Assembly: GCF_965363235.1 (NCBI RefSeq)
Contig: NC_134850.1
Coordinates: forward strand, 37,320,602 to 37,384,601
Reading direction: 5' to 3'
DNA length: 64,000 nucleotides
Source of the DNA: Mytilus galloprovincialis
Taxonomy: Eukaryota; Mollusca; Bivalvia; Mytilida; Mytilidae
The notes below the pieces were generated by a model, which saw only the letters and a list, made by a program, of their open reading frames with translations, was not told the DNA's origin and did no database searches. Shown here piece by piece: positions 11,671-63,169 of the stretch (position 1 is its first letter; each line of letters opens with the position of its first letter). The translations under genes and the position numbers were made by a program.

Positions 11671-11708
11671 GTTAACCCATTAAAAACTGTTACATTTAAG
11701 CTGCAGTA

Positions 11709-22506: not shown

Positions 22507-25500
22507 ATGGGTATTTTGGAAAAGTTTGGAGTTCACATTGTATTACACAGTTACATATTGTATCTCAGATACCGATGTCTGTCCGGAAACATCAAAACCA
22601 TTGATATGACTGTAAATTACAATTTGATTGGCCAGCTGTCCCTTTACCTGAATCTTGGGCAGTTTAACCAGACGAAATCATTGATCCGATGCACAAGTAG
22701 ATGTTTGTTGCGTACGGATTGTAGATCATTGTTTTACCAGAACCAGACAAAACAATGCATTCTTCATAGTCTAAATATTTTTGAGTTGTCGGTTCAAGGT
22801 ATAGAAGTCGATCTTGTGACGTCAGCTGGTTGGGAATATTACGAAAGAGAAGAAGGTACGTACTTTTTCTGTTTATTGTCATCTTTCTATTCTTAATGTC
22901 ACCCGTTTTACTTACATTATGTTATTTATATACCCTTTGGTATATTCTCCTCATTTTATACCATTTGAAGTCGCATAATAGTCAGAATATCAAGCATATG
23001 GTCATTTTTTGTTTATAAAAATACTGATAGCAAAATCATGAATTATTCGAAATCGAAATACTAATGATGTTCTTATCCCAGACATATATTTCATTAGCCG
23101 TATTTGCAACAACTTTTTGGAATTTTGGGTCCTCAATGCTCTTCAACCTTATACTTGTTTTGCCTTCTTACTTTTTTTATCTGAGCGTCACTGATTAGTC
23201 TTATGTAGACGAAACACACGTCTGGTGTATCACATTATAAGCCTCGTAACTTTGATAACTAGTTAGGCCAAATAAAAATATATGTGTGGTTCCAGTTATC
23301 ATACCTACCCTACTTTTTAGTCTAAATAAAAAAATAAAATCCCTACCAATTTACCCTAACTTTGTTTTTAGGTGCAACTGGGACCAGACATTCTATTTTA
23401 TTTGACCTATGAAATGCAAGGGAAACATTTCATTTGAAAAAAGCGTATTAAATAAATACCAAGATTTAGTTCAATATCTTAAATAATTAAATAAGTAAAT
23501 AATAAAAGAACTTAACTCCAAATAAAATCACAACGGAAAGTCTCCAACTAAATGGCAAAATCAAAAGCTCACAACATCAAACGAATATAGAATATCTGCC
23601 ATATTCCTGACTTGAAGAAGCTCACAATGGAAGAAATTATTTTGGATAATTTTAAAGGAATTTATTCATTATTCTGGGTACTTATTAAAAAGATGATGAG
23701 GTATGATTGTCAATGAAACAACTCCCCACAAGAGACCAAAAGACACAGAAATTAACAAGTACAGGTCAACGTACGGCCTTCAACAATGAGTAAATCCCAT
23801 ACCACATAGTCAGCCATAAAAGGCCTCGAAATAAACTCTACATTTTTTTTTACAATTTTTTTATGAGGGATATTTCACGAACAATGAAACCTAGTCAAAC
23901 CATTGAACAGCAGATGAAGCACTAATATAAATTATTTCTAATAGTTAATGTGAATCATGTTTTGTTAACAGTGTGCCAATTATGTCTTATACAATTATAA
24001 ATGTTTTGACTTAACCCTAATACAGACTCTGAATTTTACATTTAGATGATATTAGTTCACTGGTAAAATGCATTTCCAATCCTGGATTTCTATACAGTCC
24101 AAATGGTGATATGTGTTATTTCATTGGTTCGCCTGAGATTGTGGATTTTAACTACATTAAAAAACTGTGTGTAGATATGGGTAGTGATCTTATTAGAATA
24201 GATTCAGCAACCAAGCAAATAAGTGTTCAGCAAATACTTGGTAAGCTAAATATACTTGAAATAAATGAGCAGATTTTTTGTTGTCATCTTTGGTCCGAAG
24301 GTTCTGAAAATGTTTCCATAGAGTTGATTGATGTTTGTGTTGTGTTGCTTTTTCTCTTTTGCATGGTCCGTTTTAGCCTTGATAACTGTTTTCTTTTTCT
24401 TCTGTCAGTTTTCATTCATCTTTTTAAGAGCTTTACAAAGCTATTTTTCGATACAAAAAAATCTTTTAGTTGAATTATGTTTCTTCTATGTTAGATCTCC
24501 ATCTTCGCTTTGCGGGTTGTACATGCAAAACAGAAGATAACTTCTATGTATCAATGCAAGCAGCCTGGTTCCTTTTTGAGTTCATGCGGCTCCTTCAATT
24601 TTGTTCTAAAACCTTTAGTTGTCTTTATAACCGATTTATGAGATTAAAACAAAAGTAGACTGCCGTTGCCTATATTTCCATCTTTTTATTCAGCTCTGTC
24701 TAATATTTTGTAAATAAATGAAAGTCGTATCATCAAGGGTTCAAAAGTTACATTCAAAATGAATACCGTAATTCATTGCAATATCCATTTCAAGCTATGA
24801 ATTATTTTCGACAATTTTCACCACTTCGTATGTGACGTCATTTTTATGAGTATTTGCGTTGAGGCCTGGACTAAGTCGGGTGTGTCTATTTTCTGTATTT
24901 TTTGGTCTTTGTATTATGTATTCGGGTTTTGTTTTCTGTGATTAGTTAAGACTTCAGTTTTATCATGTATATCTTTTATATTCATTTGATAAAATTTACT
25001 GTTTGCAGTAGCATAAATTGTACTAAATAATAAGAATGTTCTTATCACAAGCAGAAAACCCTTGACGTATTTGGCACAACCTTTTTCAACTTTTGATCCT
25101 CAGTGCTGTACAATTTTGTACTTTTTTTGACTATCGAACTTTTATATCTGGGCGTCACTGAGAAGTCTTGTGTGGACGAGGCGCGTTTTTGGCGTATTGA
25201 ATTTTAAACCTGATGCCTTTTGTTCATGTGTTTCTTTGCCTAATACGTTCTCCTATTTATTTGTATTGTAGTCCTGTAATATTATGTTGTCATTTTAATG
25301 TTATATTAATTGCATGCCACAAAACCAGGTTCAACCCACCATTTTTTCCTTTAAAAATGTCCTGTACCAAGCCAGGAAAATGGCCATTGTTATATGATAG
25401 TTCGTTTCTGTGTGTGTAACATTTTTATGTTGTGTTTCCGTTGTGTCGTTTGTTTTCTCTTATATTTTAGTGTGAATTCACATTACTATAAGATGTGTCA

Positions 25501-26620
25501 CGGTACTTTTCTATCAAATTCATGTATTTGGTTTTGATGTTATATTTGTTATTCTCATCGGATTTTTCTAATGCTTAGTCCGTTTCTGTGTGTGTTACAT
25601 TTTAATGTTGTGTCGTTGTTCTCCTCTTATATTTAATGCGTTTCCCTCAGTTTTGGTTTGTTATCCCAATTTGTTTTTTGTCCATATATTTACGAGTTTT
25701 TAACAGCGCTATACTACTGTTGCCTTTATTTAAAGAAATTTATTCACTATTCTGGGAGCTGCACATTTTTGCATACATTTTTGATATTTTATAGTGTGTT
25801 TTTCTATGTTGTGATGTTATACTATGGTTTCAGAAAAGGGAGAATGTTTGGTACCATTAAAACGTTTAATCCCGCTGCAAATGTTTGCATCTGTCCCAAG
25901 TCAGGAATCTGATGTACAGTAGTTGTCGTTTGTTTATGTAGTTCATACGTGTGTCTCGTTTCTCGTTTTTATATAGAATAGACCGTCGATTTCCCGTTTG
26001 AATTGTTTTACATTACTAATTTTTGGGGCCTTTTATAGCTTGTGGTTCGGTGTGAGCCAATGCTCCGTGTTGAAGGCTGTACCTTAACCTACAATGATTT
26101 ACTTTTATAAATTGTTATTTGGATGGAGAGTTGTCTCATTGGCACTCATACCACATCTTCCTATATCTATGAAGTTCAAACTTAAATACACAGTAGAATA
26201 TCGAAACTTTACGTATTTTTTCAGTGAAATGAACTACATCGTAACAGTATTTAGACCCGTAGACCACATGCAGTCAACGTTTACTTATAGATGTTAAACG
26301 TTGGAATATTTTCTTTCCATTGACATAACAAGTGTAGTTTCTAACTTGTTTTATTAATTTAATTTTCATTTATTAATTTTCTAGTTAATGATGTATCTGA
26401 TATGGTCTGCATTCAGGGAAACAATGACAATACCATTAAGACTTACAGATTCGATAACGATACGGAAATGACGTATTTCAACTGGAACACAGCTTCATCA
26501 CAACCGGAAAATGATTGGAATAAACATTACATAATGATGGTCAAGACCTACAATTATCTATGGCATGATATTCAAGAGCAAAGAATAGATCTAAAGTGTG
26601 CTTATATTTGTGAAAAATGA
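22507..26620 (+). CDS. Lectin B: secreted PAN/apple-like plus C-type lectin domain protein, three exons
   Basis: Exons are 22507-22855, 24046-24240 and 26385-26620, giving 259 aa. Sites are g|gtacgt, tttag|a, g|gtaagc and ctag|t, with phase-1 introns exactly as in lectin A. The open frame starts at a TTG (22492), so the ATG at 22507 is preferred. The hydrophobic N-terminus (residues about 7-26) is probably a signal peptide. A PAN/apple-like module at about 30-112 has C62, C66, C72 and C84. The CTLD spans 125-259 (C125, C140, C158, C190, then two Cys near the end before E-K). The sugar-site motif is Q221-P-E223 instead of QPD, and the W of lectin A residue 183 is M188. Ligand choice may therefore differ from lectin A (inference). 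It lacks the Ser/Thr linker of lectin A. Confidence 0.87.
23075..23275 (-). repeat. R1 repeat in lectin B intron 1
   Basis: Reverse R1 with 'tctgagcgtcactgattagt' and 'gacgaaacacacgtctgg'. Confidence 0.7.
23525..23840 (-). repeat. R2 and R3 repeats in lectin B intron 1
   Basis: R2 (23525-23615) and R3 (23690-23840, 'ggtatgattgtcaatgaaac', 'acggccttcaacaatgagta') both lie in reverse orientation. Confidence 0.7.
25060..25210 (-). repeat. R1 repeat in lectin B intron 2
   Basis: 'gggcgtcactgagaagtctt' and 'gacgaggcgcgtttttggcg'. A plus-strand R2 piece follows at 25315-25395. Confidence 0.65.
25845..26165 (+). repeat. R6 fragment followed by R3 in lectin B intron 2
   Basis: R6 core 'cgtttaatcccgctgcaaat', then R3 from 'accgtcgatttcccgtttga' to 'gttgtctcattggcactcat'. 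The R3 end sits about 220 bases before the last exon. Confidence 0.7.
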
Positions 26621-29438: not shown

Positions 29439-29979
29439 AATAATGTCCCCATGAAAAAATGTCCACTGGACACATTTTCATAGTAGAAACTGTCCATGGA
29501 CAATATTTACTTATTCAAATGTGTCCTGTACACAATTTTCTATGAAAATATGTCCTCAGGTATGAAAAAGTATCCATGACATTATCCACTTCCATAATAT
29601 TGTCCAGGGAGGGGGGCATTTTTTCGCAGGACATTGTGTCCGCCAGGGCATTTTTTTATATGATTGAATGATATCCATTGCCTTGTTATTACTGACAGCA
29701 TTTTAACTTTTAATTGCTAATTTTAAATAATTGTTACATTGACATAGAGTTGTCTCAATGGCACTCATACCATCCTTATCTTCATATTTACAAAAATGTA
29801 TTATTATATACTAAAACTCAAATAGTAACAGATGCTGTACAGTATTATTTCCCTTGAAGGACACACTTTAATGACATTTACTACAAAAATGTGTTCTGTA
29901 GATGGACCATATTTCATAGCTGTTGCTGTAAAATGCTGTCCACTTAGGAGACAATATTTCATGGCAATGGACATTATTT
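29439..29979 (+). mobile_element. R5 foldback element, full copy, plus orientation
   Basis: Starts AATAATGTCC and ends with its complement GGACATTATT. The interior repeats short modules around 'tgtcca' and 'ggaca', such as 'gtccatggacaatattt' and 'atgtcctca'. A short R3-tail piece lies in the middle (29740-29785). The same 540-bp element stands inverted at 39519-40062, and partial copies are at 30225-30440 and 36760-36855. It looks like a non-autonomous DNA element of composite origin. It ends 725 bases before the type II lectin exon. Confidence 0.7.
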
Positions 29980-30224
29980 ATTTTGAATTGCCTTCTTCTT
30001 TGACATAATAAATATAGTAAAGTCCTTCAGATTTAATTTTTACACTTCCTTCTTATTGTTATTCTTTCAATGTCATTACCATTTGCTGGAAATTTCTTAG
30101 AACTTAATTTTTTCTATATTTACTTCCATCCATTATTTGTTGGTTTACATTTGTATATCAATCAATTTCGCATTAATCCTTCAGATTTTAACTAAAATTC
30201 AAGTATAATAAAACATTTTAATGA

Positions 30225-30440
30225 CCTTAGTATTACTTCCCTTGGAGGACACAATTTAATAGCAACTACTATGAAAATTTGTCCTGTGGGTGGACACTAT
30301 TTTATATCTTTTGCAGTAAAATCTGTCCATTTGAGGGACACCATTCCATAGCAATGGACATTATTAAATACCAAAATTCTATGAAAAACCGTCCTCATGG
30401 ACACTTTTTAACAGGACACTATTATTTCTTACACTTACAG
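30225..30440 (+). mobile_element. R5 element, partial copy
   Basis: Shares 'tggaggacacaattta', 'gcaatggacattattaaata' and 'tcctcatggacacttttt' with the other R5 copies. It ends 264 bases before the ATG at 30704. Confidence 0.6.
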
Positions 30441-30703: not shown

Positions 30704-33700
30704 ATGGGAACGCATATCAACCCAGTTTTCAGCGGAGGTATTTTAAAATTTGAAATCTCTCAACGACCAGACCAAGAACATTTGTATCCTCAACAACACC
30801 GAAGTACTTTCAAAAATGCCATTGAAGGATGGAAATTTCGATGTATTTTGATTATGTCTGTAGTTATTATTGGATTAGTCACGGCTGTGTACTATGGTAC
30901 TAAAAACTTTAGCAGTGGAAAACTTTTGCATATGACAGATACTATTAAAGGTAAGAACGTATTGAAAAATTACCTTATCTATCTATGTATCAACAAAATC
31001 ATACTTTTTATAGTAAGTGTCCTAATCACATTATGCTTCAATTGGTTTAGAGTTTTTTAATTAATGAAAATAAAAAAGAATGTCGTCACAAAATTTACCA
31101 TTTACATAGTTATGCCTCTAAAGACATTGTCTTGCATACAGGATGGCAAACACATATAGTACACGCTGGACAAAAAAAATAGGCGAGTCCGTGCTTATGA
31201 TTCTAGGGTTTAAAGCTGCTTTTGACTTCTTCGGGTATCAACATTAAATACAATTATTTTCTTACCATTACTCGGACTTCTCTTCAACTATGCGTTAGTT
31301 GTGCGTTTGTTTTTTCTATATTGGCTAGAGGTATAGGGGAGGGTTGAGTTCTCATAAAAACATTTAACGTTTAACCCCGTCGCATTTTTGCGCCTGTCAC
31401 AAGTCAGGAGCCTCTGGCCTTTGTTAGTCTTATATGATTTTTAATTTTAGTTTCTTGGATATGATTATTAATTATTATGGCATCCACTATCACTTAACTA
31501 GTAACAAATTTGTTTAGGGGCCAGCTGAAGGACTCCTCAGGGTGAGGGAGTTTCTTGCTGCATTGAAGACCCATTGGTTGCCTTCGACTTTTGTCTGCTC
31601 TATGGTCGGGTTGTTGTCACTTTGACACATTCCCCATTTCCATTCTCAATTTTGATTTTATTCAACATAATACGTTATTTTTATTTGCTATAACAGCAAC
31701 ATAGTGTCATTCTGAAATCAAAATTCATTTCGAAATGAAATGTAACATTCATGATGACATGAGCTTTCACAATAAAGTGCACAGGTTAATAAAATGAAAT
31801 CTTTAAAGAAAATCGTGTTTTAAGGATCCTTTCGAAAAACTGTTATATAAGTATTTCTTTAAGTAATGTTATATGGTTGTAAAAGCGTTGACCATGCGTA
31901 CATTTTTTTTAGAATGAAGCAGACAACATGTACTTCATTTAACGCTTTTACACCCCAATTAATTTACAAAAAGAAGCATTCAATTCTTATATTTTTTTAA
32001 TGGAAACTCTTAACTCGTTGTATCGCTGAATTTTATCATAATTTCACCTCTTTTAATTTGTCGTTTACAATGTATATTCGAAAATTGATTTGAGGAGAAA
32101 TCGACGTGTTTATTACATCATGTTTCTTCTAAGAAATTCAGTCGCTTGTTTTGTATAGTTTATAATTTGTGCGAACATCCACTGGTTTGTCTTTTATAGA
32201 TACATTACCATTTCACAATCATTCAACTGCATTTTATGATTTTAATCTACAACGTGTATACTATTAATCAGAGGTATAATCGTTTTCCGATATTGGATTT
32301 TAATCTATACTTCCTATAAGGAAGAGAACGATTTCATTGAGCAGCAACTCCTCTAAAACCATTCATAGTCGGAAATATTTGTGATATGACGTACTTGTTT
32401 TTTTTTGTACTTTGAAACAATATTTTTTTTCAACAGAAAACGCTAATTAATGAATACGTACACCGCCAATTACCAGTGTCTTATACGCTTTCGCCCATGC
32501 TCAGTCGACGTACTGCACCCTCGACTGCACATGCTACACCTGTTACCTAATATGTGCATTTTTTTTCTGTAAGGCACACTACCTTTCGGTGTATTTGGAA
32601 TTAAAATTTTGCTATATCCACGGGTCATAATCACACCTTAACTGCGTCAGTATATAGGGATTGACACTACTAAATTATATCATTGGGAAAAACATTTATA
32701 TCTACAAGGAGTTTATGGTTGCATTAAGAAAACTAGGAATGGTTAGAACAGAAAGATTTGAAGCAGAGAAAACTGTGTGAACCTTATAATCAGCATGACT
32801 TTATCAAACGACAATACGAATACTAAAAATCAAGGCAAAAATTAAGGCGTAGTTACTTTAAATCAATCACGAACCCGCGATGTCGAGGGTGACGTGTGTT
32901 CTGGTATATTCTAATATAGACAATAATTTTAATCATAAAAAGACATCATAACAAGAACTTAAATACAAGACTAATAGCAACAATGGATATGCGGAAGTTC
33001 CTTTTAAACGAACCAAAGCTTAACTAGTGTATCCTCTTTATAAATTGTGCCGTAGGTTTCGGAATTTTTATCATTTTCTTATACAGGGAAGAGTCATGGG
33101 CGAAGACGACGTACGACGAACAACAAAATATTTTGGGATCATCTCCGGTTTAGGTTGCACTTTGTAAATACAGCTGTTTCTCATACCACTCTTCTTTTGG
33201 GGAGATTTAGAATATTCATAGAAAATTAATTTTGTTTACATACTGGTTCCCAGTTCTGATCTGTAGATTGCATCTCATAAAGACATAACGTGTGAATATT
33301 GTTTATATTGAAATCTATGGTAACCCTTCAGTTGAGGTAGGGATGGTTAAGAAATTTAGCATATAAACGTTGAAAACATTGCGCACAGCCGTACATTTTG
33401 ACCTTTGAAAAAAATAGAAGTGCATATTCTAGGATATGATTTTTTTTAAACTTCATAGTAAAAGTGGTAAAGTTTCAGCTGTAAAGGGAGTTCCTATGGG
33501 AAAATGCGTTGTCAATATTTACAGAAATGCAACCTTTATTGATTGTGGGAAAATAGTATATAATACTGATAAAATTTAAATATTCACAAAATTTAAACTT
33601 TTAGGAAAAAAACAAAGATTTGTATCATGAAATCTCCGACAACAGGAAACCTAAAAATTTGTCAAATGACATAAAATAATTAAACACACATGAATACAAA

Positions 33701-36700
33701 AACACATTAAAGAAACGAAGTAAAGAACTCGTAGTTACTGAAAGCTAGTTTGAATCAATCTCGTGTTGCTTATTCTTTAGTTTTCTATTTTGTGTCATGT
33801 GTACAATGTTTGTTTGTCTTTTTCATTTTTAGCCAAGGTGTTGTCAGTTTATTTTCGATTTATGAGTTTGACTGTCCCTCTGGACGACATTTTGAATGTT
33901 TTATATAGAAAATATACAGATTGCTTATCTGTTGTTGTTTTAGATGTCTCATCTTGACAGATTCTACAAGCGAGACTTTGTACTATGCTGTTTCCAGTGG
34001 CAGCGTTTGTGCGTCATTAAGTTTAAGGGGAACCTTTAATGGTAAATACATATATTTGGTTTGCAGTTGTATGAATATTAGCACATCTCTATATAGACCA
34101 TTCGGTCTTGCCGCCTAAGTCATTGTCAATTAATTAATCTATTATTATGGATTTAGTTTCTCTCTATCGATTTATGACTTTTAAACAGCAGTTTTCTAAT
34201 GTTGCCTTTATTCATAAGCGTTTCTCGCTTTTTATATATTGAATAGACCGTTGGTTTTCCTGTTTGCATTATTTTTCATCAGTAAATGTTTTTAGCTTGC
34301 TGTTTGGTCTGAGCCAAGGCTTTGGGCTTTGTGTTGCAGGCCGTACTTTGACCTATAATTTTCTACTTTTTACACATTGTGACTTGGATGAAACGTTGTC
34401 TCATGGCACTCATACCACATTTCCTTATTCATACATATTGTCATCTTTTAAAACATTATAAACAGAAGGTGAGATTTGTAACTCCGGATTTTGTACACTA
34501 CCTGTAGCTGGAAAATAAGCTCGGTATCATTTTTTTTGTTTATAATTTTTGAATAATGTGATAATACTACATTTTGCTGTATTTGGCACAGTTTTTTGGA
34601 ATTTTGAGCCCTCAATGCTCTTCACCTTTTTACTTGATTGGCTTTATAACCGTTGGTTTTCCAGTTTGGATAGAAAATGCTAGTCATTGTCCCTTTATAA
34701 CATGCAACCAAAACACCGCACTTTGACCTATAATGGTTTACTTTTACAAATTGTGACTTGGATGGAGAGTTGTCTCATTGGTAATCATACCACATCTTTG
34801 TATATCAATAGATTGCTTATCTGTTGTTTTGTGTGTGAGTGTGTGTGTGTGTGTGTTTTTTTGTATCATCTGGACGGAGTCAACAAACGAGACTTTACTA
34901 TGCTGTTTCAAGTGACGGCGTTTGTGATTTATTAAGTTTAAAGGGGAACATTAACTGGTAAATAGATTATATTTGGTATGTAGTTGTATATTTATTGACA
35001 CATTTAGTTTTTATAAAGATAACTCGGCCTTGCCGCCTTTGTCATTGTCTGTTGACTTTAAAACTTTGCATATACTAGTAGTTTCCATTCAAGGCTTTTG
35101 TACCTCAGAAATAGATTACCTTAGCTGTATTTGGCAAAACTTTTAGGAAATTTGGTCCTCAATGCTCTTCAACTTCGTACTTCATTTAACCTTTTAAACT
35201 TTTTTTGGATTCGAGCGTCACTGTTGAGTCCGTTTTGTGGACGAAACGCGCGTCTGGCATAAATAAAAAATTTAATCCTGGTATCTTTGATGAGTTTATT
35301 TAACGTTTGTGATTTGTATGTCAGTTTAAAGGGAATCGCTTCAGATAAGTTAATGATATTTTGTATGCAGTTATATAAACATTGGCATGGAGATTGTTTG
35401 TCATTGTACCCTCAATTCTGGCCAACTGACTTTACGAGTCTTGCATATATAGTTGCCATGTTTATGTTTTCGACTAAGTCAGTTTACATAATTTGACTTC
35501 CTCATCTTAAGTTTTGGTACGTTATTTGTCGTATTATTTTTCTTTGGCTTTTTACCTTTCTTTTTTGACAATGGTTTTACCAATCTTCAATTAAAAAAAT
35601 AAAGACATTTGCAACGGATTTTACAAAATTCGCTATTTTCGAACCACTTTAGTTATGTATATCATTTTCTGTCAAGTTTGTGCTATTTTCGGGTTTAACC
35701 AAACGGATACGTTAACGAGCGAGGGCTTTAAATAGAGCATTTGCATTAATCAAGTATTTGCTGCCGTATCCGAATCGACGTATCGTATAACACGTATATG
35801 AGGAAACGATAAATTAAGTCAAGTTGGTCCCGATGAAAATATTATATAATGCGTTTCATTCTAATTGAGATCGGGATAAAATCGTTATTGTAACAAATCT
35901 GTTCGATACGTATACGTCGATCCGTGCACGTATCCTGATACGTGAATAATGCAAATTCTCTAGAAGAGCATTTGCATTAAGTATTTGCTGGCGTATCCGA
36001 ATCGACGTATCGTGTAACACGTATATGAGGAAAAGATAAATTAAGTCAAGTTAGTCCCGATGAAAATATATAATGCATTAAATTTTAATTGAGATCGGGG
36101 TAAACTCATTATTGTAAACAAATCTGTTCGAAACGTATACGTGAATAATGCAAATGCTCTAATATATATAATGGCGACTTTGATGAATACGAATAAAAAT
36201 AATCGGAAAGTTAACGGATATCAATTGATCCGTTAGTTAATGTATGTTTTGTAAAAACCATTTTAAAGAATGTACAAAAAAAAAAAAAAAAAAAAAAATA
36301 TCTGTTTATAAGATAATTTCCTAAAAGAACATACATTACTAAGATGTTACACCAAAGTTTCCAGCAATTTGTATTCTTTTTAATATGAAATTCATCTGTT
36401 TTTTACAAAAAAACAAAACTAGTGGCATGTAAAGTTTATCTTAGTTTATTGTTTTCCATGCCGAAAACAAACGAAGCTATAGTTTTAAACTACATGCTCA
36501 GGACAGTCATGTTTTGATGTGTTATGCCATCAATAGACCAGTTACCCTTCCGGAGTCACCGAGATTATTCTTGATTTTTTAGGTTCATGTTGCTCCGTCT
36601 ATAGTTTTCTATTTTATTGTTTGTCGTTTGGTTGTGTTTGGACTTGGTTTACCATTTCATTGTTCCGTCTGATTACGACCCTTTAAGTTTTAATATCAAT

Positions 36701-38921
36701 TTCGCATTTCGCCTGTCTTTTAAGTCGATATTAAGTTGCACAGACACTCTATCATATTGTAAGACATAATAGTGTCCTATGAAAAGGTGTCCACCCGGAC
36801 AGTTTTTCATAGATTTTTGGTATTTAATAATGTCCTTTGCCATATATTGTCCCACAAATGACACCGTTTTAGTGAGTATGCCGAAAGTGCACGAGAAAAT
36901 GTATTTCTTATGTATTTGCTAATTTGATTAGCGCTTATTTAAAACAATATTCTTATTTTTTTTCAGACGGTTGCCCTGCGGGATTAACGACTGAACAGGA
37001 ATTAATTTTGAATTACGACGGAAACTGCTATTTCTTTTCAAACACTGCCTTAAGTTATAGTCAAGCTAGTATTAGCTGTGCTCAGAAGAAAGGATTTCTA
37101 GCTGTTATACGAGACAATGCTACTCAAATTGCACTTTCCGAGCATGCAGACCTAGTTACAGATATCACAGAAAGCTCCAGTTATTGGATTGGAATTAAAA
37201 GAGAAACGTATACTCAAACTTCTTTAGGTATGTATAAGGTATAAGGGTCGGTATGCATAAATTTAGATTTGTTTTGAACGGATGGATTTCCCTTCATATT
37301 TTACGATAAATTAGTACTATGATTGTGGTTTTATGTATATCAGTCAAATGCTCTTAAAAATAATAAAATATATAATCGGGATACCTTTTGTGATGATATC
37401 AGTTTTGTAGGGGTTCATTCTCATATATACAACTTTTTAAAATTATAGGATGTACACGTAAAAAAAGTTGGATAGATGAGAACAAAGGTAACCAAGAACA
37501 AAGAGTTTTTCAATTAGAGTTTGGGTTAAATGACAGGTGAAAAATAAGACTGAAAATTATACCCGGATTACATTTCTGTAGTATAATATTTAGCATAGCA
37601 TGTTAAAATGTGCAACTGGCATTTAGTTTAAATGTAATGTAAATCATTTGAAAGTATTTTTAACGTTTAATTACACAAAGACTGAACAGAACAATAAAAG
37701 TGACAGGAATAGCTTGGTTATGATATCTGCATGTGATGGTTAGTGGTTGTGGTCTCTTGGAAATCTGGTAACTAGATTATCTGTGGTGTTGACGGTGCCA
37801 GGGCAGTCCATTTCTGTACATTTCCAGTATACAAGTTCTGCATCTCTGCCCTGTTTTCTGGTCTTAACACAATATCTGTAGCCTGCAACTGCTAGGTTAC
37901 TAATAGTTGTTTTCGAACAACATTTAAATTATTAATTAAATTGCTCACTTGATTAAAACTGTGACTATCTTCATTGGACATTAGCTAAATAAATGGTGAT
38001 TCAATTTGAGAATCTAGATTGTGAAAAATTTTGTAACTTTTAACTATGTTGGAAATAATGGAATTAGTAACCATGATCTAGAAATAGAGAGAGGTAGATA
38101 CAGGGGACTTCAGGCAATGGATAGAATTTGTTATCTTTGTAAACAAGAAGTGGAAGATGAACTCCATTTTTTCCTAAAATGTTCATCTTTAGGAAATGAG
38201 AGAGTTTCCACATTCCTATTACCTATAGACAAATAAGGTTCAAAATGTATATTTCTCTTAAGTATTAATAAGTATTTTGCTAATGAACTCATAGAATTAA
38301 ACCTACAACATGAGCTTAACTATGAACATTTATTGTTGTAATGTTATAACTTGCACCTACAATTTAAAAAGCAATAAAAACAGTCATATTTACTTTCATA
38401 AAATGTTAATATAAAAATAATTCTGATTTGTGGGTTTCTTCTGTATAAATGATGAAACATTTATTTATTATTTGAAATATATTAAATTTTATTTAAAAAT
38501 AAAATGTAACAAGTTTACCATCGCCTATTTTATATATATTTTTAAAATAATATAAAAACATACAGGAACAAGTTTACTGTCAAATTTTAGAAAGACACCT
38601 CATGTATTATTCCAAACAAACAACCCAATAATTAACAAAAATAAAAGATGGCCAAATGAGAATACCTTATTTTAAAAAGTTGGATAAATGGGAAGACATC
38701 CCCCGCAGAATAGGTAATTTTGAATTGTGTTTATTGTAGGTGAATCAACAGAATTCTTAAATTTTGATTCAAATTCTCTTTCGCTTGTTCAAACTGGTCA
38801 AAAAGGATGTGCAAGGTTAGATTTAACAGAAGATTCTAAATGGATTGCTGATGATTGTGCTAGAGTTTCCTGGGATATCGGGCATATTTGTCAATATACC
38901 GGAACAAGTAAGTTTAAATAG
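30704..38921 (+). CDS. Lectin C: type II membrane C-type lectin (proposed model)
   Basis: Proposed exons 30704-30950, 36967-37227 and 38740-38921, giving 229 aa. The first exon (ATG with G at -3 and +4; the open frame above it begins only at TTG 30569) encodes about 45 cytoplasmic residues, a membrane segment at about 46-65 and a short stalk with an N-F-S-S glycosylation site at 68-71. It ends g|gtaaga, phase 1. The next exons (ttcag|ac, g|gtatgt, gtag|gt) encode a long-form CTLD with six cysteines and W-I-G-I, but no EPN/QPD motif and W-I-A-D-D-C in place of WND. Canonical Ca2+/sugar binding is therefore doubtful. No last exon is seen before the next lectin start, but reading past the 38907|gtaagt donor gives T-S-K-F-K-stop. 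Linking exon 1 to the CTLD over a 6-kb intron is inference, and stalk exons may be missed. Confidence 0.6.
31240..31665 (+). repeat. R6 repeat, long form
   Basis: Contains the R6 core ('cgtttaaccccgtcgcattt') and continues to 'gaagacccattggttgcctt' and 'acattccccatttccattct'. This is the longest R6 in the window. Confidence 0.7.
31670..33770. other. Lectin C intron 1, non-repetitive part
   Basis: No exon or known repeat recognised. If the type II lectin has stalk exons they would lie here, but I found no convincing phase-1 exon. Confidence 0.4.
33775..35295. repeat. Repeat cluster in lectin C intron 1
   Basis: R4 (33775-33895, +), then three related copies of an unnamed repeat with 'agattgcttatctgttgt' and 'cttgccgcc' (33915-34125, 34805-35050, weaker 35300-35420). 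Also R3 (34225-34425 and 34640-34805, +), R1 (34565-34640 partial and 35090-35295, -) and a TG microsatellite at 34829-34856. Small open frames here are repeat sequence. Confidence 0.6.
35733..36161 (+). mobile_element. Two adjacent MITEs with TA target duplications
   Basis: Copy 1 is about 35735-35960 and copy 2 about 35966-36159. Each starts GAGCATTTGCATTA and ends with its complement (copy 1 has one changed base near the end). Each is flanked by TA (copy 2's left flank is less clear), as expected for Tc1/mariner-type elements. Interiors share 'cgtatccgaatcgacgtatc' and 'aattaagtcaagtt'. Copy 2 lacks a short stretch near the right end. Confidence 0.75.
36760..36855 (-). mobile_element. R5 element, partial, minus orientation
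   Basis: 'gtgtcctatgaaaaggtgtc' and 'aataatgtcctttgcc' match the reverse of 30330-30430. It ends where the duplicated CTLD segment begins. Confidence 0.6.
37411..38707 (+). mobile_element. Insertion in the CTLD intron of copy 1, containing a LINE 3' remnant
   Basis: About 1.3 kb is missing between 'gatatcagtattgta' and 'ataggtaattttgaattg' in copy 2. It encloses a 71-codon frame (38021-38236) reading L-E-I-E-R-G-R-Y and then C-Y-L-C...H-F-F-L-K-C. That is the CCHC-type zinc knuckle found near the C-terminus of many non-LTR retrotransposon polyproteins (family knowledge). The element is truncated at its 5' side, and I see no target duplication. Confidence 0.55.
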
Positions 38922-39069
38922 TTCAAAGTCTGCTAATTGAAAAAAATAAGAATTTTAATGTTAAAGTTTGCGTTTTTTCAACAAAAACGAATTCTATACG
39001 AAAAAAAATATTAGAATCGAGTGTATTTGATAAGTTACTCAAATATATTCTGTATAAAATAGAAGCAAG

Positions 39070-39320
39070 AAAAAATATAAAAAAATAATACCAAAAGGAC
39101 ATTCAATCTCATAAAGAGGAAAATAAAGTGACAACGCCATTGTAACAAGACCAAAACATAATCAGTATACAGAACACAACACAAAAAAAATTAATTACTG
39201 AACAACACGAACCCCACCAAAAACCGGGGGTGGGTGGGGTGGGAGATCTAAGCAGATCCTAAAGGGTAAGCAGATCAAGCTCCACACGTGACAAACTCAC
39301 GTGTCTAAACTGCTAATGGT
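39070..39320 (-). repeat. R4 repeat, downstream of CTLD copy 1
   Basis: 'aagtgacaacgccattgtaa' and 'gaacaacacgaaccccacca'. The same R4 lies at 46370-46580 in copy 2, so it predates the duplication. Confidence 0.65.
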
Positions 39321-39518
39321 AAATCATGCAGATTGACGCGTAAACAGATTAAAATTCTTAGAAATTCACATATTTGTCATTGTTGAAGAATCTAATCACA
39401 TAAGAGGGCCAATGTGCTATGAGGCTTTTCCATAGAGTAATCCCTTACAAAACATAGGTGTTCAAGCATGATTGGCAATCAAATGAACTTTGTTTTCAAA
39501 TATAGAATTTTGGTATCA

Positions 39519-40062
39519 AATAATATCCATTGCCATGAAATATTGTCCACTAAGTGGACACCTTTTACAGCAACAGTTGTGTAATATGGTCAATCTACAG
39601 GACAATTTTTCATGATAAGTGTTATTAAATAATGTTCTCCAAGGAAAATAATACTGAATAGCATCTGTTGGTTGTTTGAATTTTAATCGTTATACATATA
39701 TATATTAAAAAAGATAAATAAGAATAAAAGGATGGCATGTGTGCCAAGAAGACAACTTTCTGTCAAACTAACAACGTATTTAAGCTCACAATTGTAATCT
39801 AAATTACGTCCAGTAAAACAAGGCAATGGATATTATTTAATAATTTAATGATATATCAAAAAATGTCCTGTGAAAAAATGTCCACCTGGACATAATTATA
39901 GTATTAAACAATGTCCATGTTCATAGACACTTTTTCATACATGAGGACATATTTTCATAGAAAATTGTGTCCAGGACACATTTAGATAAGGAAATATTGT
40001 CCATGGACAGTCTTTACTATGAAATTGTGTTCGGTGGACATGATTTCATGGTGGACATTATT
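39519..40062 (-). mobile_element. R5 foldback element, full copy, minus orientation
   Basis: Reverse complement of 29439-29979 over its whole length, including the internal R3 tail (39732-39770). It ends 849 bases before the signal-peptide exon of lectin D. The two copies form an inverted pair about 10 kb apart. Confidence 0.7.
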
Positions 40063-40264
40063 AACTCCTACACTATATCCTGCTCAGCGCATAGCAGCCG
40101 TTATATTGACAAAGAAAGTAGTGTTTCAATATCGAACGTATTTGTACATAGCTCTCTGGAATTAACTAACAAAAGACTTGAAAATTAAAGATTCTTAATA
40201 AGTTTGTATGACAATGATGTATGATAAATTAAATACTAGTATACACAAAGCTGAGTGCATTTGT

Positions 40265-40440
40265 ATAATAAATCGAGATAACGATATAATAATCCAAGAT
40301 CTACATATAACAATTTCGTTTTATCGAGATAACGATATATTTTTTATCGAGATCTCGGTAAAACGGTAATGTTTTATCGTGATCTCGAATTGAAAAAAAT
40401 ATTTTCTAATTTTTTGTGTGTCCCCTTACGGCTTCCGTAC
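40265..40440 (+). repeat. Dispersed repeat with TATCGAGATAAC motifs
   Basis: Several copies of 'atcgagataacgatat' and 'atcgagatctcggt' end at 'ccccttacggcttccgtac'. I remember this as a widespread mollusc repeat. Confidence 0.5.
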
Positions 40441-40910
40441 ATTTGTAATTATTACAATTGTTACCCTCGGGTATTTTATTCATATGATGGAAACAGCTTT
40501 TACCAACCAGTTTCATTGCTAGCAATACACCTTGTCAAGGTTAACAAATTATGTCAGTTAGTTATGCAATTTATGACTTTCCTAAAGTTTTTCGCTCATT
40601 TTTTTTTTTAATTCAAACAACATAGCACGATTAATGTTATAATTACTTCAAAATAACAAATATATTAACTATAAGCTGGTCATCACCCTTTGTGTTTCTT
40701 GACCAAATCCTTTTTATAATCCTTGCAGATTATCAATATGTTCAAATTCACATATTTGTATACAAACTCTTCCCACTTCAAATGACGTTATAACACATGA
40801 AAATGATGAATAAATAATGAGACATCCGGACATGGCCTATCATATAGTAAGTGTGACTATTTAATACCGGGATCATTCACTATACAACGATCGAACAACA
40901 CGAAAGCAAA

Positions 40911-43900
40911 ATGCATTGCGCCAGTAAATATTTATCAGGATATGTACTATTTCTTGCTGTTCAGATAGTCTTTTCTCAAAGTAAGTATGATGTGCTTAAA
41001 TGTTTAAAGGGGTATAAATTAAAATCACTAGATTTAAAAAAAAAAATTGCCATAAAAATGATGGGTCAGTGGACTTTGTTTGAACTACGGGTTGTGCAAT
41101 AATGTCTGATTTTGTATAGTTTATTCATTTGAATAAAAAGACAATATTGTGAGATAAAAAAAAAAACAAAACTAAACGTACACTTAAAAACTAAAAAAGC
41201 GCCAAAGATTTGAAGAAATAGTTCATGTAATTACTAACCATGCTTGAACACTTATGTTATGTTAGGGATGACTGGGATGACTCTAGTTTTAGTTTTCTGT
41301 GTTGTGTTTTGTTGAGTTTTTTTGCTTACGATTAACCAGCGGACAAATACTATAAACAGATTTGTGAAGTATGTTATACCACTGCCCCCATTTAGGGAGA
41401 GCGTTTAGCGCGGAATCACTTACCAACCCGCCATATTCTTTATATGCCTGTATCAATTCAGCATATTATTCAGTGATTGTCATTGGTTGCTGTCTTCTAT
41501 ATGTGTACGATAATAGTAGAATAATACAACTCGACTTGAAAAAAAGAACATTTGAATACACGAAGAAACAATACATAATGGCATATTTAGGGTTTACAAA
41601 GTAGTAAATAATAGACTAAAGCATAACCAAATAAAATTAGACACAGCATATGTAACATCTTTCCCTTCATTTCGAGGAAATCAGATGATCCAAAATAACC
41701 TTGAAAAAAACATATGGAACTTTTTTTTTGCTCGGAGTGAATCCGGAGATTTTAGATACAAACATGAACAAATGTTATGTATGTAACATAATTATTCGTA
41801 TGATGTAATTTAAGTGCTCTTAAAAAAATCAAAACATGTAAAATCATTGTTTGTTTGTGATAAGGATTATTTGCTCTTTACAACATGAAACTATAAACAT
41901 TGAGTTTAAAGTGGCGTATAGAGGAAGACGGAGTGCCCGGAGAATACCACCGACCATCTATAGGAAAACTGACAATCCTAGTCAACTAAGACATTGGAGT
42001 CAAGTGTACTCGCACTTTGTAATAATAGTTATGCTGCTCATTTCACTTTAATGAATGATCTAATTACTTACTTAAAATAAATATTTTCAGCTAAAATTTG
42101 ACAAAACATACAATTTTGTTCTTCTTCGGAATGAACTATGACAAAAATTATTTGACGGCTTCAAAAAACGTTCATTTTAAAGAAATACTGCAAAAGTACC
42201 TAAATCGATGCACGAACAACTTTCATACCTAGAGGAGGGACGCACGTGTGTCTTATATTATCTTACAGTCGCTGGATATTATGTCATTTGTAACCTGCAC
42301 GTCATGTCTCCGTTTCCTACCTATATTATATTCTACCGCTGTATTTCGCGGAATTATATTGGTAGATGTGTACTTAACAATCATCCGAATACATCAGTTT
42401 TTTTTCTTTCCTTTATCCTTTTATATAAAATAGAAATGTTGTCAAGTATGTCGATGACACGATAACGACAACAAAGGCACAGACATTCCTGTTTTATAGT
42501 TGATCAGATTGTTTCATCCCATCTTTTTTTTTTATAAATAAAGTACAATAACTAACCTTGAAAATATTTACATAATTTGTAATTTTAAGTGAGATGAAAA
42601 TTACTTTCATCGTACTTCCGACTTTGACTCATGTTATTTTTAAAGTGTCTCCTGACCGAAAAAAAAAGTTTTTTTTATTAAAATAATCCTAAAAACAAGA
42701 ATGTGTCCATAGTACACGTTTGCCCCACTCGCAATATCATTTTCTATGTTCAATGGACCGTGAAATTAGGATAAAAACTCTTATTTGGCATTAAGATTAG
42801 AAAGATCATATCATAAGAACATATGTACTAAGTTTCAAGTTGTTCGAACTTCAACTTCATCAAAAACTACCTTGACTAAATTTTTTTAACCTGAAGCGGG
42901 AAAGACGGACGAACGAACGGAGGCACAGACCAGAAAACATAATGCCCCTCTACTATCGTAGGTGGGGCAAAAAAGTGGAGAAGATTAACAAAATATAATT
43001 CTTGTATTTCAAAACGACACTTTTAAAATAACACAAATCAAAATTTAAAGTATGTCGATAGTCATATTTTGACATAGTATGAGCCTCTCCGTGGGGTTTT
43101 TGATTATGTGATTTCTTGACCAAATAGTTCATGATAATTTGCTTATTTGATTATTTAGGACTGTTTTTTGTTATGTGTATTGGATTATTTGATTATCTTG
43201 ATTACAAAAAGTGATCATATTGACATCCCAATAAGGGGTCTCTAATATGAAAGCAGTTCTTTGTTGTATGAGTGGCCTCTAATATAAAAGCAGGTCTTTG
43301 TTATATGAGTGGCCTCTAATATAAAAGCAGGTCTTTGTTATATGAGTGGCATCTAATAAAAAAGCAGTTCTCACTTGTGTGACGTTGGGGAAGGAAACTG
43401 TATAACAAAGGCTTGTGATCTTATTTCTTAGAATTTCACATACTTTGTACTTTATCATTATCTAAACACGATTATAATTCCGTTTTCATAGAGAAAATAA
43501 ACATAGATCCAAGGTTAATGAATCTTTTCTTTCTTTAACATTATTTTTGGTTGTTAGAAACTAAGAATTGTGTGCAACGTTAATATCAAGTAATAATGTT
43601 TTATGATAAAATAAAATATACCAAAGGAGATAATGCCAAATTCATTATCATCGAATTGATTCAAACTCATTTATCAAACATACTAATATATAGAGCAGAA
43701 TTACAAAAATGTTATAGGCAACAATAAAAAATTATAAAAATCGCATCAGCATTCAGTGCTTATTCTAAGCCTCGATGCCATTAACTACTGAACAATCGAG
43801 ATGAACTACGAAGACTATCGATAGTCATTTGACCCAATATAGATATAAATAGAACGACTAGCACGCGTCACGGTTTTATGACAATTTTTCTAGGTTTGTT

Positions 43901-46900
43901 TCATTTTACATTAGATTTGATAATTTGTATGTGTAACATTGTTTCTCCTGTATAGGAATGATTTTATGGACGAAATGGGGCTTTTATGGGCGAAATGGCC
44001 TTTTATGGGCGAAATGGTGACTCCTTTAATTGTTAAACTTTTCAATTTTGATAATCTTTTCTGTTTAATAAATGAACCTGCTAAGCACATGAGCAACCCA
44101 ACTCTAACTAAGGGTCAAAAGTTGCAAATTTATGGACCCAAATGAGTGTGAGTTACAATACTATATCAGCTATGGTTTTATTTAAAAAAAAAAAAACCTG
44201 GCATTTATTCGCGAATTGTTAGATCCAAATTCTGCTTTTAATTTATTTATGTTTAAACAAAAACAACCAATGTTACTTTTAATTTTTTATAACTGTAGAT
44301 AATGCCCTTTTAATGATAACAAAGTTTTATGACCACAAAGGATGTTCAAAGTATTAATCCCTTAATATCTCCTTCTAGTTTTGTTTTAATCTATCTTAAA
44401 AGACTTCCGATTTATGCTAATTAAGTACGAAAGGTAATGACTAATAAATTGTCATTGTTGATCTCACTATGGCCATAACTAGTTCTTGCTACATTCATAA
44501 CTTTTGTTTGTGTTTTTATTTTTAGCTATGGCGTTGTCAGTTTATTTTCAATCTACGAGTTTGACTATCCCCTCTGGTATCTTTCGTCCCTCTTTTTTTC
44601 GCTATAGTCATAACCTGTACTCGCTATAGCCATAGCTTGGATTCGCACTGTTACTGGCTATGGCCATAACTTATACTCACTACGGTAATACATATACTCG
44701 CTATTTGTTTTCCCTATGGTCATAACATGTACTCGCTTTGGTCGTCACATGTACTCGCTACGATCATAACTGGTACCCGTTATGGTCATTACTTGTACGT
44801 GGAAAGGTTATAACTTGTTCTATCTATGGTTATTACTTGTTTTTGCTATGGTAAAAATTTGAATTCTTTATGATAAGAACTTGTACTCGATATGTTCAAA
44901 ACATGTATTCGCAAGGATCAGAACTTGTACTCGCTATGGTCATAACTTGTATTTGGAGCCCACTTTAATTCACAACTTCTGAAAATATTAATAAACACGT
45001 TGACACACTCCCCCCCCCCCCCCGGATATTTATCAATAGGCCTAATTCATACTGTTCATATATAGTCATCGAATCTAAATAATTTATTTTGTGAACTGTC
45101 TCCCTCAATTTATGAGCCCTGTTCAAAGAAAAAATTAAGGGAAAATGACACCGTTTGAGTAAGTAAAAATGTATGCTGAAACTGCACGAGAAAATGTATT
45201 TCTTATGTATTTGCTAATTTGATAAGCGTTTATTGAAAACAATATTCTTATTTTTTCAGACGGTTGCCCTGCGGGATTAACGACTGAACAGGAATTAATT
45301 TTGAATTACGACGGAAACTGCTATTTCTTTTCAAACACTGCCTTAAGTTATAGTCAAGCTAATAATAGCTGTGCTCAGAAGGAAGGCTTTCTAGCTGTGA
45401 TACGAGACAATGCTACTCAAATTGCACTTTCCAAGCATGCAGACCTAGTTTCAGATATCGCAGAAAGCTCCAGTTATTGGATAGGAATTAAAAGAGAAAA
45501 CTCAACATATACTACAACTTCTTTAGGTATGTATAAGGTATAAGGGTCGGGATGCGCAAAGCTACTTAAGTTAAGATTTGTTCCAAATGGTTGTATTTTC
45601 CTAAACATATTTTACGATAACTTAGTACTACGATTGTAGTTTTATGCTATCAGTTCAGTGCTCTTAATAATAATAAAATATATCCAAAATCAAAGATGTG
45701 GATTTTATTTTATCATGATTTTTCGGAAATCAATGCAATTAGATTCTCCTCCATGACTGTCTTGAACATTAAAACTAAATATGAATTAAAAACACTGCTA
45801 AATTGTTTAGTGTTTTGCTCAGGTTGGCTGTCATTGTACATCACCTTTCAACGTAGAACCCTGTGGAAAAAACCCAGAGAAGGCTCTTTGTCAGAAAAAG
45901 CTGTCAAACATTCAAACATACTATCCATACTGATCTGTGTCCACACATGTAATAATAATAAAATATATAATCTGGATACCTTTTGTGATGATATCAGTAT
46001 TGTATGATAGGTAATTTTGAATTGTTTTTATTGTAGGTGAATCAGCAGAATTCTTAAATTTTGATTCAAATTCTCTTTCGCCTGTTCAAACTGGTCAAAA
46101 AGGATGTGCAAGGTTAGATTTAACAGAAGATTCTAAATGGATTGCAGATGATTGTGCTAGAGTTTTCTGGGATATCGGGCATATTTGTCAATATACTGGA
46201 ACAAGTAAGTTTAAATAGTTTAAAAGTCTGATAATTGAAAGTGTGCGTTTTTTTGGCGCCAATTTGTTATTATTTGCAAACGTCTTAAAAATCGAGTTCT
46301 ATACGAAAAAGTATTTTAGGATAGAAAGTATACGATAAATAACTTAAACACAGACACTACAAAATAGATTTAAAAAAGAAACAATAACAATCGCATAAGA
46401 TGAAAATAAAATGACACGGCTATTGCAACTTAGTATAAGACCAAAACTTAATCAGTTAAACAAAACACAACATAAAAAACTAAAAACTGAGCAACACAAA
46501 CCCCACTAAAACCGGGGATGATCTAGAACACCCTGAAGGGTGAGTAGATCCTGCTCCACAGGTGACAACCTTCCAAACATTTTATGGTAAATCATGCAGA
46601 TTGAGGCGTAGACAGATTAAACTTCTTAGAAATTCACATCTTTGTCATTGTTGAAGAATCTTATCACATAAGATGGGCCAAGGTGCTATGATTATTCGCT
46701 CGTTTTTCTGTTATCAACTTATTTTAAACAGTTAGATTTGTTTATTCCACATGTTTATCGTATTGTGATCTTATAAGTATGCAATGAAATAGTGTATAAA
46801 AACTATCTTGTACTTGTCAAAGAGCTAAAACGCCATCTTTCTTATCAAATTAAAATATTGTTTTCATTGTTTTTTTAGGCTCTGCACCATATACGAGTAA

Positions 46901-47479
46901 GTATTTTTATAAATAATACTGATAGCGCTGTTCAAATTAAATAGTTTCATAATGAACCAAGAATCTTGAATTATTTAAAAGTTAATTTATTGCATTATTA
47001 TATGGAATCTTATTAGGACCACACATGTATGTTCCGTGACAAAAATTATTATCGGTTTTCTATGGACAGTTAAACGCTTTTTAACTGTAACCACAATATT
47101 TCAATTGTCATACATGTATATACATGTAGTTGAAAGCAATTATTTTTTTACACATCATATTATTGTTTTATGCTTAATACATCAAATACTTCCTTCCTAT
47201 TGTTTTGACAGGGTTTTCCCGTATTAATTTACAAAATGAACGATACTATCTTTATGTAAAAGTGTATCCTATATAACCTATTTTAGTTTATAAAAAGACC
47301 GATATGATCTTTTTGTAAAGATGTATCCTTTATAGTTTATTAGTTTATTAGTTTATTATGGTTTTATGAGAATAAACTATCTATCTATCTATCTATCTAT
47401 TAAAAAGTTTTGTTATCTTGTAGAAGCTGGACCCGGATTCATCATCTCAATACTAGCTGTTTTCCTGGTTTTACAATGA
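40911..47479 (+). CDS. Lectin D: secreted, probably GPI-anchored C-type lectin, five coding exons
   Basis: Exons are 40911-40980, 45260-45526, 46037-46204, 46879-46896 (18-nt microexon) and 47424-47491 (stop 47477-47479), giving 192 aa. Every junction has GT/AG and is phase 1. Residues 1-23 are a signal peptide. A long-form CTLD spans 26-165 with C26/C44, C61/C163, C136/C152 and W97-I-G-I. The usual EPN/QPD site is absent and WND is replaced by W147-I-A-D-D-C152, so ligand binding may not need Ca2+ or sugar. The tail S-S-A-P-Y-T-K-A-G-P-G and then about 12 hydrophobic residues ending at Q192 fits a GPI-attachment signal better than a full membrane span (inference). A donor 12 bases after the stop (47491|gtaagc) leads to a probable 3'UTR exon at 50783. 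Reading past 46204 would instead give T-S-K-F-K-stop. Confidence 0.75.
41905..42005 (-). repeat. Partial tRNA-SINE body
   Basis: Shares 'taggaaaactgacaatcct' and 'agtcaactaagac' with the SINE at 47870-48060. The tRNA-like head is missing. Confidence 0.55.
42690..42975 (+). repeat. R8, bivalve-type dispersed repeat
   Basis: Begins 'acaagaatgtgtccatagta' and ends 'actatcgtaggtggggcaaa', with a 'gacggacgaacgaacgga' stretch. Boundaries are from memory of similar bivalve repeats. Confidence 0.6.
43235..43375 (+). repeat. 37-bp tandem repeat, about 3.8 copies
   Basis: The unit starts 'gtggcctctaatataaaagc'. Starts are at about 43235, 43272, 43309 and 43346. The middle two units are nearly identical. 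It lies in lectin D intron 1. Confidence 0.85.
44465..44953 (+). repeat. 22-bp minisatellite interrupted by an R4 fragment
   Basis: About 16 diverged units of the type 'cgctatggtcataacttgta' run from 44600 to 44953. Two more lie at 44465-44507 on the other side of an R4 piece (44515-44595). It lies in lectin D intron 1, just before a C-homopolymer at about 45010-45024. Confidence 0.8.
45665..45968. mobile_element. 266-bp insertion with 19-bp target duplication in copy 2 CTLD intron
   Basis: The flanking direct repeat 'taataataataaaatatat' is at 45665-45683 and 45950-45968. Copy 1 has the site once (37355-37373). Long target duplications point to LINE-type retroposition. The inserted sequence is not one of the other repeats in this window, and I do not recognise it. 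Confidence 0.75.
46370..46580 (-). repeat. R4 repeat in copy 2
   Basis: Counterpart of 39070-39320. It lies between the second CTLD exon and the microexon. Confidence 0.65.
47380..47401 (+). repeat. TCTA microsatellite
   Basis: About five tetramer copies, ending 22 bases before the GPI-tail exon. It could crowd the branch-point region of that intron. Confidence 0.85.
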
Positions 47480-47638
47480 TAGAGACAGTTGGTAAGCTTA
47501 AATATAGATATGATGAAAGGGTTAAATTGAAAGCTATTTACTGTTCATTAAGTGGTCTTAAAAATCGAGGTAGCTATAGGCAAGATCTTTTTAGGGGGTT
47601 ATTTTAAAAATTTGGTTTCCATTTTTATTCAATCAATT

Positions 47639-47820
47639 CCTGTTTGATTTGACACGATTGAGAACTTGACATACCGGTATTCTCATGTGATTTTCTGTTC
47701 CTGTTTGATTTGACACGATTGAGAACTTGACATACCGGTATTCTCATGTGATTTTCTGTTCCTGTTTGATTTGACACGATTGAGAATTTGACATACCGGT
47801 ATTCTCATGTGATTTTCTGA
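47639..47820 (+). repeat. 61-bp tandem repeat, three copies
   Basis: Units start at 47639, 47700 and 47761 with 'cctgtttgatttgacacgat'. I see one substitution in the body of the third unit, so expansion is recent. It lies in the proposed 3'UTR intron of lectin D. Confidence 0.92.
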
Positions 47821-52313: not shown

Positions 52314-53685
52314 TTAGTGACCATGTCCAATCTGTCTTTTACACTGACCTTTACGGTAAAGGGAGCGACAAGCCCGTTGGAACCGGAAGTCCGTAAACCC
52401 GTATACCATTGGATTAACAACGTTGTTTATAAGATAAAGTCTCAGACCAATTTCATACATTGCCAATTTCACTCCCTCCAAATTGTCTTTGATACTGGTA
52501 TCTAAACTGACTGTTATACATAAGCAAAAGTATGGTGCATGCACAATAACAAAGATGGCTGTGATAATTATCAACGTCCTTGTGGTTCTTTCCAAATGTA
52601 TTTGACTTTCTGGATTGTTCTGATGAACATGTAAATGAAGTTCATTCGTGGATTCCGACATTCGAGTAAGATTGTTTGCTAAAGACGATACAGTTGGTTG
52701 TTCCAAAACACAGTTCTTTTGTCGGTTTCGAATTGTTCGGACAATTGACGTATAAGCGAAAACAAGAACAAAAGTTGAAACCATGTAGGCTATTCCAACA
52801 GCGGCAAAATAAATAATAACAAGTCCTGTCTCATAGTTTTCGTCGTCCATCTCACAAGCCACCAAAGTATGATTACCTATATAAACAATATGCTGACCGT
52901 TTGTAAACACCCCCGGTATGGCTAAAACTAATGCAATCGCTGCTGCAATGAGCGAACAAATGTTTGAAATTTTAGTTGACATCCGCCATCCTGATAACGA
53001 CGTACAAATCCGTATATAACGTTCTACTGCTATTATTACAAGTAAAAGAATGGACAAGTAATTGAGAAAGTAGACGAAGTATCGATATGTTTTACATACA
53101 CCTTCAGAATAAAATCCGAATGGCTTCAATAAATATAAAATTTCTAACGGCATATGCGTTACACAAACCAATAAATCCACGCAAGCCAATGTTCTTACAA
53201 AGACCCTGTATGTTGACTGTCTGAAGAATTTGGTGAAGATAAACAGGACATTTGCATTCCCAAACACTCCGATTGCAATAAGAATGGCAATGTAGACTAC
53301 AGATGGCATCCGCTGAGCAATGATTTCTGATATTTCATTTTCAACTGTGTTATCAGCATCTGATTCGTCCTAATAAAACAAATAGTAAACCATTCAGAAT
53401 AAATGTTCCATACTCTGAATGCAAAATAAAATAAAACCTGCGCCGATATACATAAACCTGTTCAAACCTATCAAACACCACCCCCTGAAAAGGAATAATA
53501 CTCCCAAAAAACATAAAACAAAACAGAACCGAAATAAAACAATTAAAAAACTCTAAATATAAGAGGGTGAAATGATACGAAACAAAGTCTTTATATACTT
53601 TACGAGCACAGCTGAATTGAATATTGCCAAAATTATTAGTTTATGAATTATTTTAAAAAAATACCTTGGTAATAACAGATTCCAT
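52314..53685 (-). CDS. GPCR 1: orphan rhodopsin-like (class A) receptor, two exons
   Basis: The main exon is 53369-52314. A short first exon, 53685-53665 (seven codons from ATG), joins it in phase 0 (aag|gtat, ttattag|gac), giving 358 aa. If that exon is wrong, the in-exon ATG at 53309 gives 331 aa. Seven hydrophobic segments are visible. Class A marks (358-aa numbering) are G-N in TM1, the extracellular cysteine pair C99/C179, E123-R-Y125 in place of DRY, H284-A-P-Y287 in TM6 (no tryptophan of CWxP) and N326-P-M-V-Y330. A short Cys-rich C-terminal tail follows. The N-terminus is acidic. It is probably a plasma-membrane receptor for a peptide or small ligand (family knowledge), ligand unknown. 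A paralogue lies at 61999-63060. Confidence 0.85.
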
Positions 53686-63060: not shown

Positions 63061-63169
63061 CAGTTGTTCCTGAAAAGATAAAAGCAGATATAAAAGATGG
63101 TGAAGTTGGCATTGAATATTTTTTGTTAAAAAGAACCAGCGAGAAATACTTTTTACACACATATATATC

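Follow-up and report, generated by a model that had tools for sequence, protein, structure and literature searches.

A Mytilus galloprovincialis locus with two near-identical lectin-like exon pairs behind different predicted membrane attachments

The window, a 64,000-nt stretch of Mytilus galloprovincialis DNA, contains two exon cassettes with open reading frames, here called A and B. In cassette A, an exon for a predicted type II membrane anchor precedes a pair of exons encoding a lectin-like domain (CTLD); in cassette B, a signal-peptide exon precedes a second CTLD pair, a microexon and a tail exon with a hydrophobic end (Table 1). The ten junction coordinates named in an initial annotation of this sequence are all exact, and every one is in phase 1. 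That annotation had also described the two start exons as each ending in phase 1, the CTLD exon pairs as nearly identical and a GPI-like tail exon as lying downstream. Each description is borne out: the frames of both start exons are open, the repeat cores of the pairs are 96% and 97% identical, and the tail exon follows pair 2. Among the accepted exons, all six acceptors end in AG and all seven donors read GTAAGA, GTATGT or GTAAGT. The CTLD cassettes cannot be a product of chance, and the exon anatomy is real and merits recording. Conceptual translation gives a protein A of 229 residues (anchor and pair 1, with the last donor unused, to a TAG stop) and a protein B of 192 residues (signal peptide, pair 2, microexon and tail).

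Table 1. Positions of the exons and duplicated blocks in the window, with predicted gene assignments
Feature	Gene	Positions	Strand	Details
Anchor exon (exon 1)	A	30704–30950	+	ATG; 82 codons + 1 base; donor GTAAGA
CTLD pair 1, first half	A	36967–37227	+	Phase 1-1
CTLD pair 1, second half	A	38740–38907	+	
Weak candidate last exon	A	40729–40793	+	Ends ..TNYQYVQIHIFVYKLFPLQMTL, stop; AATAAA at 40809
Signal-peptide exon (exon 1)	B	40911–40980	+	Ends in phase 1
CTLD pair 2, first half	B	45260–45526	+	
CTLD pair 2, second half	B	46037–46204	+	
Microexon	B	46879–46896	+	18 nt; symmetric phase 1-1; donor GTAAGT; encodes SSAPYT
Tail exon	B	47424–47479	+	Coding to TGA; ends ..AGPGFIISILAVFLVLQ, stop; GPI-signal-like
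Duplicated block, copy 1		36856–39422	+	
Duplicated block, copy 2		45143–46691	+	About 1.5 kb

Upstream of both cassettes, at 22474–26620, lies a gene combining PAN and CTLD sequences. Its PAN_1 match (9e-8) is over the Pfam cut-off, and its CTLD halves (24046–24240 and 26385–26620) match Lectin_C at 0.0015 with a score of 19.7 bits, which does not reach the 22.6-bit cut-off. The upstream part of the window has at least one more CTLD gene, then, and by eye a second exon set like it, a pattern that suggests tandem copying in a cluster. By eye, a second similar PAN-like exon and a CTLD first-half exon occupy 11700–13765, a 654-codon open frame at 4440–6404 is RING/B-box (TRIM-type)-like, and two intronless open frames at 52314–53369 and 61999–63168 (minus strand) resemble 7-TM receptors.

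Each CTLD exon pair passes Pfam Lectin_C, with E-values of 3e-8 and 3e-10 and scores of 34.6 and 41.4 bits against that same cut-off of 22.6. Both domains contain six cysteines, as in the long form. The strings [EQ]P[NDS] (EPN/QPD-type) and W[NS]D (WND) are absent from A and B, and a WIADD stands close to the expected WND position. The CTLD ligand is probably a protein or other molecule, bound without a classical calcium-dependent sugar site. The initial annotation had spoken of the same binding domain in both places; the domains are near-identical, with 132 of 143 aligned residues shared, rather than the same, as they differ at 11 of the 143 residues, by a 2-residue indel and by two N-glycosylation sequons, NNS and NST, that B's CTLD carries and A's does not.

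A PDB sequence search with the CTLD returned 79 sequences at E ≤ 1. LY75 was the best match, with a chain total of 1.2e-9 and 0.0035 in its single best stretch; the PLA2 receptor and the mannose receptor came next, and KLRF1 and CD69 had E of about 2e-4. Pfam also matched poxvirus A33R weakly, at 0.016 and 0.048 (under the cut-off), which we read as reflecting the common CTLD-like fold.

The anchor exon encodes a 46-residue N-terminal region, a transmembrane-like segment CILIMSVVIIGLVTAVYYG (residues 47–65; 19-residue hydropathy mean, KD19, of 2.30) and then a short stalk with one N-glycosylation sequon, NFS. The charges on either side of the segment were judged by eye, the type II pattern having the positive side inward, and the gene A product is a putative type II membrane protein. 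As a chance null, we took 129,030 bp on both strands (258,060 strand-bases) and found seven open stretches of 60 codons or more running from an ATG to a donor; in two of the seven the 19-residue hydropathy mean is 1.9 or higher, and one reaches the 2.30 of the anchor. About 0.04 such anchors would be expected by chance in the 10.3 kb of sense strand that precede CTLD pair 1, or about 0.01 with phase 1 included, given thresholds chosen after the exon was seen and a null sequence that includes some real genes.

Codon scores place the anchor above 62 of 67 null open stretches for all codons and above 67 of 67 for synonymous usage only, with the combined training set and equally with the GPCR set, which suits a membrane exon; with the lectin set the counts are 63 and 66 of 67. 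Against coding slices, which are the training sequences themselves, 94 of 310 in the combined set score at or below the anchor, and the anchor lies under all 39 slices of the small lectin set (all codons). Pfam contains no homologue of the anchor, and a genome protein search, with the best candidates scored, found only the exon itself. The evidence that the anchor exon is real is moderate and mixed, and this exon is less certain than the cassettes.

For the 3′ end of gene A there are two candidates, a retained intron or the weakly supported exon at 40729, either of which may supply the last exon. With the last donor of pair 1 unused, the frame reads to a TAG at 38919–38921 (ending ..GTSKFK), and an AATAAA follows at 39122. 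The acceptor at 40729 is the only one between 38907 and 40870 with at least 12 pyrimidines in 16, a filter that loses three of the six acceptors accepted here and lets through an unassigned gene B site at 47212. The interval from CTLD pair 1 to the signal-peptide exon contains ten polyadenylation hexamers, motifs that occur often in AT-rich sequence. Around gene A there are also inverted repeats, 77–89% complementary, pairing 29449–30433 with 36758–36843 and 39502–40051; by eye they belong to a mobile-element family rich in GTCC/GGAC.

In gene B, the first exon encodes a 23-residue signal-peptide-like sequence, MHCASKYLSGYVLFLAVQIVFSQ, and a TATA-like TATTTAA, noted by eye and weak evidence in AT-rich DNA, lies upstream of 40911. 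The C terminus, ..TSSAPYTKAGPG-FIISILAVFLVLQ, has small residues, a spacer and a short hydrophobic end in the order of a GPI signal, with a best 12-residue hydropathy of 3.32, and GPI attachment of B is putative on this basis. By rule of thumb, the residues encoded by the microexon would include the best candidate attachment serines. The microexon has an acceptor with 13 of 16 pyrimidines, and skipping it leaves the frame unchanged. In genome DNA searches with the best candidates scored, the signal-peptide exon and the tail exon each matched only themselves. Just past the tail exon, at 47637–47819, a 61-nt unit is present in three tandem copies that are 98–100% identical.

The duplicated block consists of the CTLD pair and adjoining intron, and the anchor, signal peptide, microexon and tail all lie outside it. 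Copy 1 has additional intron sequence that weakly matches a reverse-transcriptase zinc finger (E = 5e-4, below the cut-off of Pfam). Splice sites are intact in both copies, and the sole indel between their exons is 6 nt long and in frame. The block comparison gave no copy of the microexon or the tail exon after CTLD pair 1, at a threshold that sequences as short as these (18 and 56 bases) could escape.

Between the copies, 6 synonymous differences in 90.5 sites (dS 0.069) and 11 amino-acid-changing differences in 332.5 sites (dN 0.034) compare with 31 differences in 333 aligned near-intron sites. Amino-acid-changing differences are rarer than near-intron differences (p = 0.002). The comparison gives p = 0.0008 when a 55-base intron piece with a 19-base overlap with another in copy 1 is dropped (28 in 278), and adding the poorly aligned 3′ flank (109 in 471) widens the gap. 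Amino-acid-changing differences (11/332) are not significantly rarer than synonymous ones (6/90; p = 0.22), and synonymous and intron change do not differ (p = 0.53). Because these two comparisons are non-significant, the argument for selection on both copies is drawn solely from the intron comparison.

This assembly contains 17 myticin-family matches, in keeping with Mytilus. We searched the 1.385 Gb assembly (331 contigs, the window lying on C13) and scored the best candidates. Among these, the CTLD first half matched both local copies and one distant site, C1:76008673 (32% identity, E = 0.002), and the second half matched the two local copies only. The distant match was rejected as a member of a wider family, its gene being by eye of different make-up, and for that reason it is unusable as an outgroup. 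We also rejected haplotype duplication in the assembly, as the copies differ in context, at the near-intron sites counted above (31/333) and in intron stretches that cannot be aligned. Genomes of the genus Mytilus show much presence/absence variation, with 8.79% hemizygous deletions reported for M. galloprovincialis (PMC11183127).

Several lines of evidence lead us to read the locus as probably two head-to-tail genes, A and B, that arose from partial duplication, rather than as one switching gene. First, each start exon lies directly upstream of its own CTLD pair, with matching phases, and the duplicated block omits both starts and the tail. Second, the frames of both copies remain open and their splice sites intact, and amino-acid change is rarer than intron change. 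The other CTLD sequences upstream in the window and the ten polyadenylation hexamers between the cassettes fit this reading as well. Gene A, running from 30704 to between 38.9 and 40.8 kb, would encode a type II membrane protein with its N terminus inside, a single transmembrane helix, a short stalk and one C-terminal CTLD outside. Gene B, at 40911–47479, would encode a protein of the secretory pathway whose CTLD is nearly identical and which a GPI anchor at the C terminus attaches to the outer leaflet. The partial segmental duplication would have taken in the CTLD exon pair and introns and not whole genes, giving closely related domains two kinds of attachment, and A and B would have separate promoters and gene ends.

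The initial annotation had instead proposed a locus that switches between the two membrane forms. Its frame argument stands in part: the anchor joined to either pair, either pair joined to the tail, and both pairs fused all stay in frame, and this includes anchor–pair 1–tail and anchor–pair 2–tail. The use of matching phase 1 as a clue to splicing fares less well. The two readable junctions of the neighbouring PAN–CTLD gene are also in phase 1. Extracellular modules that have been shuffled are expected to be compatible in this way, and matching frames therefore tell us little about splicing. Alternative starts or splicing within one locus, with the 30704 start also joined to pair 2, the tail or both, would fit the lack of a strong terminal exon for gene A besides intron retention or the 40729 candidate, but the nearest CTLD pair is a different one for each start and we consider this explanation unlikely. 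A topology switch is possible but unsupported. Our searches of open-licence PubMed Central brought up no title or abstract opening that describes a topology-switching lectin locus.

The weaker evidence for the anchor raises a second explanation, which we likewise judge improbable: that gene A does not work, the 30704 frame being chance or part of another gene and CTLD pair 1 a stranded duplicate. The anchor is without a homologue, a clear last exon was not found, the overall codon score of the anchor is under those of all 39 lectin slices, and the differences between the pairs show no significant excess at synonymous sites (p = 0.22). Against this, the frames and splice sites of pair 1 are intact with less amino-acid than intron change, hydrophobic ATG-to-donor stretches of this length are rare (1 in 258,060 strand-bases) and the synonymous codon usage of the anchor favours coding.

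Very unlikely, finally, is a predicted doubly anchored protein made by read-through, in which transcripts from 30704 would continue beyond the signal-peptide exon into pair 2 and the tail. In its favour, the frame of this fusion stays open for 394 residues as far as the stop in the tail (with an N-terminal transmembrane segment, two CTLDs and a C-terminal GPI-like signal), and the four AGs at 40794–40910 have, by eye, poor pyrimidine tracts, so that read-through would skip the signal-peptide exon. Against it, the ten polyadenylation hexamers and a stop a short way beyond the donor of pair 1 intervene, and the TATA-like element before 40911, weak as it is, points to a separate start. A precedent for anchoring at two ends is BST-2/tetherin, with an N-terminal transmembrane segment, a C-terminal GPI anchor and a coiled coil but no CTLD; the hypothetical read-through product would share the two-ended anchoring but has CTLDs.

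Under the two-gene reading, the predicted products can be set beside known lectin-like proteins. Vertebrate type II receptors with a single CTLD, such as CD69, KLR/NK receptors and CD23, have an N-terminal transmembrane segment, a short stalk and a C-terminal CTLD, the layout predicted for gene A, and CD69 and KLRF1 are among the PDB matches; LY75, the PLA2 receptor and the mannose receptor, however, outrank them for the mussel CTLD, and the resemblance, a weak one, is probably convergent. In this comparison no ITIM or ITAM was seen by eye. Secreted C-type lectins of bivalves consist of a signal peptide and one CTLD; unlike them, gene B has a GPI-like tail, gene A has a predicted type II start, and both lack the EPN/QPD-type and WND strings. 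The CTLD family of this genome is large, the best 150 of 1034 candidates having been scored, which gives a lower bound.

If there are two genes, the locus would be a readable case of exon shuffling, with one recognition domain placed on two opposite membrane attachments. Were transcripts to join the halves, the locus would be one at which a lectin switches its topology. Quite unlikely, in our assessment, is a single transcription unit in which the start and the 3′ end that are chosen decide how one CTLD is oriented on the cell and in what number; were it true, the forms would be a type II protein with one CTLD, a GPI-linked protein with one CTLD and a doubly anchored bridge with two, and the skippable 18-nt microexon would tune the GPI competence of the tail.
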